A stretch of DNA of 64,000 nucleotides from Sphingobium sp. (GTDB taxonomy: Bacteria > Pseudomonadota > Alphaproteobacteria > Sphingomonadales > Sphingomonadaceae), in assembly GCA_035196065.1 (NCBI GenBank), contig CP136575.1, forward strand, positions 1,900,769 through 1,964,768. Direction: 5' to 3'. Made by a program: the position numbers and the translations under genes. The notes beneath the pieces are model-generated. The model had not been told where the DNA came from. It did no database searches and was given only the letters and a program-made list of their open reading frames with translations. Shown one piece after another: positions 61,507 to 63,647 of this stretch. The stretch's first letter is position 1. Each line of letters starts with the position of its first letter.

Positions 61507-61779
61507 ATGAATAAGAATGATCTCGTCGGCGCCGTTGCAGATGCAAGCGGTCTCAGCAAAACCGATGCGGGCAAGGCTGTGGAAGCAACCTTTGACGCCA
61601 TCACCAGCGCCCTGAAAAGTGGCGGTGAAGTTCGCCTTGTCGGTTTCGGCACCTTTGCAGTTGCAAAGCGCAAGGCTTCGACCGGTCGCAACCCGCGCAC
61701 TGGTGAAGAGATGAAGATCCCGGCTTCGAACCAGCCCAAATTCAAGGCTGGCAAAGCTCTCAAGGATGCCGTGAACTAA
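61507..61779 (+). CDS. hupB: DNA-binding protein HU
   Basis: 90 residues from ATG 61507, with AGGGGGAT upstream. MNKNDLVGAVADASGLSKTD, VGFGTFAVAKRKASTGRNPR and TGEEMKIPASNQPKFKAGKA show a complete HU protein with the DNA-gripping arm (RNPRTGEE). It compacts and bends DNA without much specificity. It is next to lon, a common arrangement in proteobacteria. Only one HU gene is present in the window. A terminator follows it. Confidence 0.96.
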   Translation: MNKNDLVGAVADASGLSKTDAGKAVEATFDAITSALKSGGEVRLVGFGTFAVAKRKASTGRNPRTGEEMKIPASNQPKFKAGKALKDAVN

Positions 61780-61801
61780 GCTTCACGCATTGGCGAAAAC
61801 A

Positions 61802-61835
61802 AAAGGCGGGCCCGCAAGGGTTCCGCCTTTTTTTT
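61802..61835. terminator. Rho-independent terminator shared by hupB and the SOS-like gene
   Basis: AAAGGCGG (61802-61809) and CCGCCTTT (61823-61830), followed by more T residues to 61835 on the plus strand; the minus strand shows TTTTGTTTT after the stem. It probably serves both convergent genes. Confidence 0.85.
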
Positions 61836-61846
61836 GTTCGAAAAAT

Positions 61847-62098
61847 TCAGGCTACCCGGGGAAGTTGGAACGCAAAGCTCCGCTGGTGAGCTTCTGTCTC
61901 CAGCGGATTGACCACGACCAGCCTAACCCGTTGTCCGGTGTAACGGACTTTGCCGACGCGGATCACACGCTCCGCAGCTTTGCCACGCGATGCGAGCACT
62001 TCTTCAATCCGCGAGCGATATTGCCCCATAGTGAGGGCGATTGCATAAGCTGAAAACAGAAATGCTGTGACGAACAGTGAGGCGACGAGCAGCGACAT
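61847..62098 (-). CDS. Small membrane protein, probable LexA-regulated
   Basis: 83 residues from ATG 62098, behind GGAGAATA. Residues 1-24 form one hydrophobic segment (MSLLVASLFVTAFLFSAYAI), followed by a basic, soluble part (RSRIEEVLASRGKAAERVIR, GKVRYTGQRVRLVVVN) that is probably cytoplasmic. I recognise no domain. The promoter on the minus strand has a perfect TTGACA -35 and, over the spacer and -10, the box GTTC-N7-GTTC of alphaproteobacterial LexA. Induction on DNA damage is therefore likely. Size and topology recall SidA, an SOS-induced inner-membrane cell-division inhibitor of Caulobacter, but similarity in sequence is not evident. A housekeeping membrane protein is the alternative. 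Confidence 0.75.
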   Translation of the reverse strand: MSLLVASLFVTAFLFSAYAIALTMGQYRSRIEEVLASRGKAAERVIRVGKVRYTGQRVRLVVVNPLETEAHQRSFAFQLPRVA

Positions 62099-62123
62099 TA
62101 TATTCTCCGAAATCTCTTATCTG

Positions 62124-62157
62124 GAACCAATGTTCTATATATGTTCTGTTCTGTCAA
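62124..62157 (-). promoter_or_regulatory. LexA-type operator with -35 hexamer
   Basis: Plus-strand GTTC (62132-62135), TATATAT, GTTC (62143-62146) is an exact match to the alphaproteobacterial SOS box GTTC-N7-GTTC. A third GTTC follows at 62148-62151, and GAACCAATGTTC (62124-62135) adds an inverted GAAC-N4-GTTC. On the minus strand TTGACA (62157-62152) is a perfect -35, placing the box over the spacer and -10 of the small membrane-protein gene 34 bases downstream. Confidence 0.8.
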
Positions 62158-62234
62158 CAACAAATTTTGTGGTTGTGCAGGCGGGCATGGGTCGATTACG
62201 GCCAGTTAAACCAATTCAGAGGGGAAATGGGCTC

Positions 62235-63647
62235 ATGGGTATCGCTAAATTTATGATTGCGGCAGCGGCGGCTGTCGTTGCAACAGCCAGTGCGCAGGCG
62301 CAGGAATTACGCCCCGATCAGGCGGAGTTCCGCGAGTTATATGCCGAACTGGTGAACACCAACACCGCATTTTCGAACGGCAATTGCACCATTGCGGCCG
62401 AGCAATTGGCCAAGCGCATGTGGGATGCCGGCTATAGCAAGGATGATGCAAGGGTCATCGTCGTTCCCGGCTTTGAACGCGAAGGCAATCTTGTCGCTAT
62501 TCTGCAGGGAACCTCGAAAACGCTGAAGCCGATGCTGTTGCTGGCACATATCGATGTGGTCGAAGCCAGGCGCGAGGATTGGACACGCGATCCCTTCACG
62601 CTGGTGGAAGAAGACGGTTTTTTCTACGCCCGTGGCGTGGCTGATGACAAGGCGCAGGCCGCCATGTGGATCGACAGCCTGATCCGCCTGAAAAAAGAAG
62701 GTTACAAGCCAAAGCGCACGATCAAACTTGCGGCGACATGTGGTGAGGAGAGTAATGCTGAGGCGCTGAACGGTGCGGAATGGCTGGCGCGGAACATGCC
62801 AGATGCGATTTCGGCCGAGTTTGCCCTGAACGAGGGCGGTGGCGGCCGCGTCGACAAAAATGGCAACCGTCAATTTCTGGCCATGCAGGTTGGTGAAAAG
62901 GCCACCCGTACCTTCGACCTTCAAACGACCAATCCGGGCGGCCACAGTTCGGTGCCCCGACCTGACAATGCTATCTACGATCTGGCCGAGGCCGTGGTTG
63001 CCATCAAGAATCTCGGTTTCCCGGTTCAACTCAATGCGACCACCCGGGCCTTCCTGCAGCAATATTCGGCCACCGCACCCGCAGCTGCGCAAAAAGCCAT
63101 CGCTGATCTGCTGGCAGATGAGAGCAATGTTGCAGCGGGTGGCATTTTGTCAGCCGAGCCGGTGATGAATGCCACTTTGCGCACGACCTGCGTCACGACA
63201 ATGTTGGAGGCCGGCCATGCCGCCAACGCCCTTCCGCAACGCGCGAAGGCGGTGGTCAACTGCCGTATCGTTCCGGGTATGTCGACCGAGGAGACCCAGG
63301 CTGCGATCGAAAAGGCCATTGCCAATCCGCGCGTCAAGGTAACGCTTCGCAAGCCGCATCGCCCGATGGCGGTGGCACCGCCACTCGACAAGCGCATCAT
63401 GGACCCAGCGATGAAGGTGGCAGGCGAAATGTTCCCGGGCGTGCCGCTGATTCCGATCATGGCTACTGGTGCGACCGATGCAACGATGACAGCACTGATC
63501 GGCATTCCGACCTATGGCATCCCCGGCATTTTCTATGAAGCCGATGGCGGCGGTGTGCATGGTCTCAATGAACGGATCCGGACGAAATCAGTCTATGACG
63601 GCCGCGATTATCTGCACCGGTTGGTGAAGCTTTACGCGGAGAAATGA
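62235..63647 (+). CDS. M20/M28-type zinc peptidase (secreted)
   Basis: 470 residues from ATG 62235; earlier codons are not signal-like. The signal peptide is MGIAKFMIAAAAAVVATASA with QAQ. The M20 metal and catalytic residues are visible: LLLAHIDVVEA (His, Asp), GVADDKAQ (Asp), TCGEESNAE (Glu pair) and a late His in GGVHGLNERI. The central dimerisation domain (TTNPGGHSSVPRPDNAIYDL) is present. It probably cleaves peptides or acylated amino acids in the periplasm. Substrate unknown. It is divergent to the LexA-boxed gene and might also be influenced by that operator, about 90 bases upstream. Confidence 0.88.
   Translation: MGIAKFMIAAAAAVVATASAQAQELRPDQAEFRELYAELVNTNTAFSNGNCTIAAEQLAKRMWDAGYSKDDARVIVVPGFEREGNLVAILQGTSKTLKPMLLLAHIDVVEARREDWTRDPFTLVEEDGFFYARGVADDKAQAAMWIDSLIRLKKEGYKPKRTIKLAATCGEESNAEALNGAEWLARNMPDAISAEFALNEGGGGRVDKNGNRQFLAMQVGEKATRTFDLQTTNPGGHSSVPRPDNAIYDLAEAVVAIKNLGFPVQLNATTRAFLQQYSATAPAAAQKAIADLLADESNVAAGGILSAEPVMNATLRTTCVTTMLEAGHAANALPQRAKAVVNCRIVPGMSTEETQAAIEKAIANPRVKVTLRKPHRPMAVAPPLDKRIMDPAMKVAGEMFPGVPLIPIMATGATDATMTALIGIPTYGIPGIFYEADGGGVHGLNERIRTKSVYDGRDYLHRLVKLYAEK

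Follow-up and report, generated by a model that had tools for sequence, protein, structure and literature searches.

Outside the gammaproteobacteria, the DNA-damage-induced division inhibitors SidA, ChiZ, SosA and YneA are small membrane proteins that act late in division (PMC13396833; statements attributed here and below to published work refer to the accessible portions of the cited papers). The helix of YneA binds TM7 of FtsW, and low-confidence AlphaFold 3 models place SidA, ChiZ and SosA on FtsW too (PMC13396833). The LexA boxes of Caulobacter have the form GTTCN7GTTC (PMC12700426).

The gene described here is preceded by a box of this form and encodes an 83-residue protein near the end of the window, i.e. 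the whole stretch of 64,000 nucleotides that was analysed. The best explanation of this gene, to which we give about even credence, is a LexA-repressed, short-lived single-span checkpoint inhibitor of sphingomonads. The absence of SulA, on which the sequence-only reading had built part of its case, was borne out for this genome, in which PF03846 found no match, the control search being positive in E. coli. With SulA missing from its own genome, the small protein is a candidate for how sphingomonads stop division after DNA damage.

Locus, promoter and LexA box

The small gene is encoded on the minus strand and comprises the following features:

61808..61823, plus strand: terminator-like hairpin where hup and the small gene converge (one found; shuffles give 0.5 on average)
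61847..62098, minus strand: open reading frame of the small protein, 83 aa, stop codon included (read from the sequence, the relatives and a dN far below dS)
61850..61858, minus strand: C-terminal Arg-Val-Ala, local form of the ...AA end of the family and candidate degradation tag (from the family ends and the host ssrA tag)
61850..61987, minus strand: basic tail, residues 38–83, predicted to be disordered (low pLDDT; tails of the family net positive in 83/84)
61988..62017, minus strand: short juxtamembrane helix, residues 28–37 (AlphaFold2; conserved I and A-L positions)
62021..62095, minus strand: N-terminal membrane helix, residues 2–26 (AlphaFold2; conserved face F9, A12, S16 and I20 in the numbering of this protein)
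62105..62108, minus strand: ribosome-binding site GGAG of the small gene (by eye)
62124..62127, no strand assigned: inverted half-site GAAC (read in the sequence)
62132..62146, no strand assigned: LexA box GTTCTATATATGTTC (GAACATATATAGAAC on the gene strand), exact GTTCN7GTTC, conserved before homologues
62148..62151, no strand assigned: extra half-site GTTC (read in the sequence)
62152..62157, minus strand: -35 element TTGACA (TGTCAA on the forward strand), 5 nt before the box, with the same spacing in the five closest relatives

Read along the gene strand, TTGACA-N5-GAACATATATAGAAC is followed after 33 nt by the ATG, with GGAG preceding the start. The gene hup (Pfam Bac_DNA_binding), itself preceded by lon (named by eye), converges on the small gene, and a divergent M20-family peptidase gene lies upstream, followed by rpsB (by eye) at the end of the window, which places rpsB 1.8 kb from the small gene, behind the peptidase gene. 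The peptidase gene (62235–63647, plus strand) shares its intergenic region with the box, and a similar divergent gene is found in the five closest relatives; in this clade LexA might control the peptidase gene as well.

The open reading frame is coding, as third codon positions vary most and dN stays far below dS between close relatives. Among the five closest relatives dN amounts to 0.07–0.22 and dS to 0.8–1.7, indicating a coding gene under purifying selection; between the gene itself and these five, dN ranges from 0.30 to 0.36 and dS is mostly saturated. The 83-residue protein with one N-terminal membrane segment, as originally proposed, thus agrees with the frame and with the helix that AlphaFold2 places at residues 2–26.

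The promoter postulated in the sequence-only reading needs a correction in its -10 half. TTGACA is perfect as a -35 element, but the hexamer at the 17-nt spacing, AACATT, makes a poor -10, and a consensus sigma-70 scan of 61760–62300 found no promoter. The exact alphaproteobacterial LexA box behind the -35 element was found as described, at 62132–62146. The extra GTTC and the inverted GAAC said to flank it are both there, yet neither is kept in the five close relatives.

The number of such boxes carries no information. GTTCTATATATGTTC is the only exact GTTCN7GTTC in the 64-kb window, where shuffles give 1.62 on average, and 79 exact sites in the whole genome compare with 93 for the reversed control pattern. 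Since neither window nor genome is enriched, the box count was dropped as evidence, and conservation of the box before homologues was used instead.

Twenty of the 79 sites, located in 19 stretches, were inspected; they had been picked for A/T-rich or T-ending cores and represent a non-random sample, in which nine sites adjoin SOS or SOS-like genes. Boxes precede recA (two boxes), lexA, uvrA and rmuC, all confirmed by Pfam, a RadA-like gene (Pfam ATPase and zinc-ribbon domains; named by eye), ruvA (by eye) just after ruvC (Pfam), and imuA (by eye), followed by an ImuB-type gene with an IMS domain. The other 11 sites include a radical-SAM gene, an S24 repressor, an unknown gene and positions within unrelated coding frames.

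Several of these stretches deserve mention in their own right. The 15-mer of the small-gene box recurs at the ninth of the SOS-adjoining sites, before a frame that, by eye, resembles a umuD fragment (L001, 1501–1844). A 245-aa protein without Pfam match (L016, 1529–2263, plus strand) begins 28 nt from the first base of the exact box GAACAAAGATAGAAC and is a candidate for another SOS gene. A repressor with HTH and S24-peptidase domains (Pfam) stands behind the exact box GTTCCGCATCTGTTC (L012, 1584–2252, plus strand) and is either of phage type or a second LexA-like regulator. In the case of the radical-SAM protein (Pfam; L008, 391–1506, minus strand), the longest frame starts inside the exact box (GAACATATAAAGAAC). 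For comparison, the SOS genes induced in Sphingopyxis granuli include lexA, recA, radA, dinG and the imu operons; the accessible portion of that report makes no mention of the small gene among its SOS data (PMC6472365).

Relatives and conservation of the box

A single-sequence search found 13 proteins among 5.8 billion and matches in 7/99 genomes, giving the impression of a genus-restricted family, which was corrected by profile searches. Profile A2 matched 41 of the 45 genomes of the genus at 45 places, and an exact box lies upstream of the homologue at 41 of these places (six read singly and the other 39). The four places without an exact box are G010 (L033), whose box has one mismatch, and one of two tandem copies each in G012, G022 and G035. 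The five closest relatives retain TTGACA, the 5-nt gap and the box, two of them (L023 and L026) with a box that differs from that of the present gene by one base within the 7-nt core.

The tandem copies in G012, G035 and G022 (L047, L049 and L067) are about 600 nt apart; in each pair one copy carries the box at -133 to -136, and its partner lacks an exact one within 200 nt. Furthermore, 14 genus leaders (among L036–L066) contain a G+C-rich hairpin about 20–41 nt before the start codon, ahead of an AAAGGA site. This hairpin belongs to genus members with a longer leader and a box near -90; it is not claimed as a conserved structure, its five pairs being weakly supported and three of them showing two-sided changes.

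Beyond the genus, profile A3 matched 23 of the 298 family genomes, and its 16 matches outside the genus all show an exact box at no more than 250 nt as well as a final A. Profile A4, built from 14 of these 16 proteins and eight genus proteins, extended the family to 94/298 genomes and 34/91 genera, with 95 places. Ninety of these were fetched and scored; among the other five (G035 twice, G010, G166 and G227) three are boxed and two are not. An exact box lies within 250 nt upstream in 85 of the 90 fetched loci, and the same 85 combine it with a final A and a length of 60–110 aa. The 90 include five loci of the genus, among them the present gene; 80 of the remaining 85 are boxed. L117, on a short contig, has its box at -96 and ends in AAA.

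Homologues without the box, which would have spoken against the original proposal, proved to be the exception (five of 90). One of the five loci begins at a contig edge (L170), one has a one-mismatch candidate box (L173), and one is a genuine-looking homologue without exact box (L163). The last two, L179 and L180, are probably chance matches with long unrelated frames and were retained in the denominator.

In the fetched family loci, used as background, the box occurs in only 20 of 3370 overlapping 260-nt windows, and the reversed motif stands upstream in 1/91. TTGAC precedes the box by at most 30 nt in 76/80 family loci, as opposed to 142/4000 random places. As the presence of a box played no part in the choice of proteins for A4, the box represents independent evidence. 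The comparative support for LexA control of a single-span membrane protein, the core of the sequence-only reading, is therefore strong, and the small gene is, judged from these comparisons, almost certainly under LexA control.

Profile A5 was built only from boxed loci, so that no box count was made on its matches. It found 84 of 247 genomes of the order, all but one in the same family, and 5 of 389 genomes of the class, one of them outside the family with stops inside the frame. The matches outside the family in G383 (a 317-aa frame, E 8e-4) and G689 (stops inside the frame) are put down to chance.

The gene occupies a mostly fixed address. Its usual divergent neighbour is rpsB, recognised in 71 of the 90 family loci, and pssA or psd was recognised by sequence motif in 79 of them. 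Given this divergent arrangement, and given that the small gene and the M20 gene flank the box in the present clade, the box might serve rpsB or the peptidase gene, the small frame being a passenger. This is highly improbable, as the box accompanies the small gene even at loci in which rpsB or the peptidase gene is missing or distant: in part of the genus (L044, L036 and L050) rpsB is about 700 nt from the box; in genus g110 (L078, L079 and L164) adk is the neighbour, rpsB was not seen, the box lies at -172 to -183 and the protein has 104–107 aa; and in the present clade the neighbours are hup and the peptidase gene. In addition, the gene strand carries GAAC-N7-GAAC in 80 of the 84 loci with a box, and TTGAC closely precedes it in 76 of 80. 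Because the neighbourhood changes while box and protein stay, the neighbours are not necessarily functional partners of the protein.

The arrangement can also be recovered with rpsB as the sole bait. From the best 80 of 578 titled genome records, two with less than 900 nt upstream were left out, leaving 78. The arrangement was scored mechanically (a frame of 45–130 aa with a hydrophobic start and a box within 260 nt), so that the start codon may be wrong in places. A box was present in 70 of the 78 records and a box with a small N-terminally hydrophobic frame in 67, of which 66 end in A. The titles among these best 80 include Sphingobium, Novosphingobium, Sphingomonas, Sphingopyxis, Erythrobacter, Porphyrobacter, Tsuneonella, Altererythrobacter and Croceibacterium, a few records being MAGs with a broad or evidently wrong title.

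For a comparison between the family and its surroundings, 50 rpsB loci were drawn, of which L230 and L316 were left out; 2 of 22 genomes gave no rpsB. In 20 family genomes lacking a listed profile match, 15 loci are boxed, 14 show the full arrangement and 13 end in A, whereas outside the family the box is found in 1/28 genomes and the full arrangement in 0/28. The genome sets of the separate searches overlap, and the counts are not additive. Since 14 of 20 genomes without a match still have the arrangement, the profiles miss members and absence by profile is weak evidence. Within the sensitivity of these searches, the protein family appears to be confined to the Sphingomonadaceae in the GTDB sense, as judged from record titles. 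The single-span protein recurs, conserved and behind a LexA box, in Sphingomonas, Sphingobium, Novosphingobium, Sphingopyxis and relatives of Erythrobacter, for the most part at one chromosomal site. Ordinary homology searches barely detect it; it can be traced by combining promoter, address and C-terminus.

Membrane helix, topology and C-terminal end

Family members evolve fast and are mostly 65–105 aa long. The AlphaFold2 model of the present protein (37 rows; mean pLDDT 69, pTM 0.35) has low confidence everywhere after residue 37, and the first three blocks of ten residues reach mean pLDDT values of 90, 96 and 83. That the N-terminus forms a membrane helix is practically beyond doubt. In the A5 family alignment, conservation along the helix has a 100-degree periodicity, with a peak above that of all shuffles (0 of 5000 as strong). 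The conserved face is formed by F10, A13, A/S17 and I21 in alignment numbering and continues to I32 and L36. Such one-faced conservation would fit a helix with a fixed partner and gives no indication of the partner's identity.

A conserved face would suit any membrane partner. The protein might thus be a LexA-controlled membrane regulator of another process, serving as adaptor or as brake for phospholipid synthesis, given its psd-pssA neighbours, for a membrane protease such as FtsH, or for envelope growth. The frequency of pssA or psd (79/90) and rpsB (71/90) beside the gene would agree with this, and HigX provides an example of an SOS-controlled membrane protein that need not act on division (PMC13384398). 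We consider this explanation unlikely, although it keeps some weight; the neighbourhood varies, with hup and peptidase genes in the present clade and adk in three loci, and box and protein persist.

A small single-span peptide under LexA control also recalls the SOS-induced membrane toxins of the TisB/DinQ type, which would depolarise the membrane and slow growth or make persisters; DinQ is an SOS-regulated toxic single-span peptide of E. coli (PMC3567139). However, the family members, 65–104 aa in length, combine a long basic tail with a conserved helix face and so look like proteins with a partner, which makes a toxin improbable.

The orientation of the protein was assessed from its charges. 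No Lys or Arg precedes the helix in any of the 84 members scored, and the tails are net positive in 83 of them (mean 9.2 K/R vs 3.0 D/E). The positive-inside rule relates charge to membrane topology and predicts, from the uncharged N-terminus and the positive tail, an N-out/C-in orientation. Charges nearly cancel over the 20 residues that follow the helix (mean 2.2 K/R vs 1.8 D/E), which leaves the far tail and the uncharged N-terminus as the basis of the prediction. A cytoplasmic C-terminus is thus probable.

Apart from its C-terminal end and scattered Arg residues, the tail shows little conservation. A final A is found in 87 of the 90 fetched family loci and AA in 83; of 703 long frames in these loci, spurious ones included, 42 end in AA. 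Neither this end nor the conserved helix face nor the spread across the family featured in the sequence-only reading. Most members end in R-A-A-A; the present protein ends in RVA, not AA. Among 53 members ending in AAA there are 12 different versions of the final 12 bases, with varying alanine codons, and the constraint is therefore probably on the protein, although the DNA variation is limited. The host tmRNA tag is ANDNEALALAA. SsrA tags commonly end in LAA, with LVA as a used variant; ClpXP is their main reader, and ClpAP, Lon, FtsH and Prc recognise them with low affinity (PMC9382460). In Caulobacter CtrA, C-terminal alanines are needed for removal by ClpXP (PMC4433202). An ssrA-type end, i.e. 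LAA/AA or a variant such as LVA, is hence the rule in the family, the RVA of the present protein coming closest to LVA. From this resemblance, the -AA end is likely to represent a degradation tag.

If the C-terminus were periplasmic instead, the same inhibitor could have its -AA end read by a periplasmic C-terminal protease (Prc/CtpA), in the way put forward for SosA and YneA. The near-balanced charge just after the helix would permit this orientation, CtpA acts on SosA and YneA (PMC6851548; PMC13396833), and Prc recognises the ssrA tag, if with low affinity (PMC9382460). The lack of positive charge before the helix throughout and the net positive tails favour the C-in orientation, and a periplasmic end is accordingly thought rather unlikely.

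Proposed function and comparison with described inhibitors

The small membrane proteins described here constitute a new family. As had been stated from the sequence alone, they belong to no described one. The present protein has no Pfam match, and the 12 Pfam families listed at E 0.1 for a set of 59 members do not include LysM. No NCBIfam model scored above its cut-off for eight proteins, no PHROG family was found for 37 members, and the PDB holds no relative. Pfam matches of single members to unrelated families (E 0.004–0.1) and two NCBIfam matches far under their cut-offs were ignored. The best phage match, a Sulfolobus virus glycosyltransferase (30 per cent identity, E 7e-3), was judged to be chance. 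Database entries that bear names read hypothetical or uncharacterized protein, and among the matches listed in a search of open-licence literature (titles and the starts of abstracts) there was nothing on a sphingomonad division inhibitor or membrane protein of the SOS response.

From the box, the position of the promoter, the helix with its conserved face, the C-terminal rule and the extent of the family, all read from sequences, we infer induction, topology, proteolysis and a target in the divisome, which the following course of events would connect. Upon DNA damage, RecA would trigger self-cleavage of LexA, thereby opening the promoter whose -35 element abuts the LexA box. The small protein would insert by its single N-terminal helix in N-out/C-in orientation and dock with the conserved helix face on an inner-membrane partner, most likely the septal wall-synthesis complex (FtsW/FtsI/FtsN). 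The docked protein would hold division until repair is done. Once LexA returns, the basic unstructured tail with its ssrA-like -AA end would allow fast removal by ClpXP or FtsH.

The role as division inhibitor is plausible by analogy with SidA, YneA, SosA and ChiZ and in view of the missing SulA. The chances that the division machinery is the target appear balanced, and no feature favours FtsW over another membrane partner. More tentatively, these proteins could be an undescribed, fast-evolving SOS checkpoint family, widespread within one large family of bacteria, in which the tail, unlike that of YneA and SosA, lies inside and the imitation of the ssrA tag acts as a self-timer, so that division resumes shortly after the return of LexA without a dedicated protease; we lean slightly against this extended version. 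If it were true, the -AA end would join both halves of the checkpoint, induction and recovery, in one small gene.

SulA of E. coli is likewise an SOS-induced, short-lived division inhibitor; it differs in being a soluble inhibitor of FtsZ that is removed by Lon. YneA of Bacillus and ChiZ of Mycobacterium are SOS-induced single-span inhibitors as well. However, they carry a LysM domain outside the membrane, whereas the sphingomonad family lacks LysM and its predicted topology is opposite.

SosA of Staphylococcus aureus is a single-span SOS-induced division inhibitor of 77 aa whose C-terminus governs turnover (PMC6851548). In contrast to the sphingomonad family, for which the charge rule predicts the opposite, C-in topology, the C-terminus of SosA is outside; SosA is a proposed substrate of CtpA, its gene adjoins lexA, and the accessible portion of the report mentions no ssrA-like end (PMC6851548). 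That YneA and SosA are oriented the other way round and depend on their outer part to be active, while the sphingomonad tail is poorly conserved, speaks against the checkpoint inhibitor proposed here.

Two proteins of Caulobacter crescentus were also compared. SidA is a LexA-controlled inner-membrane protein of an alphaproteobacterium (PMC12700426). At 29 aa, SidA, which interacts with FtsW (PMC4211646), is much shorter than the present protein of 83 aa and differs from the family, mostly 65–105 aa long with a basic tail and an -AA end; this comparison is by description only. DidA is a single-span protein of 71 aa that acts on the late divisome (FtsN) and is SOS-independent (PMC4211646), whereas the sphingomonad family has a conserved LexA box. 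In control, size and single span, the family resembles the class formed by SidA, ChiZ, SosA and YneA.
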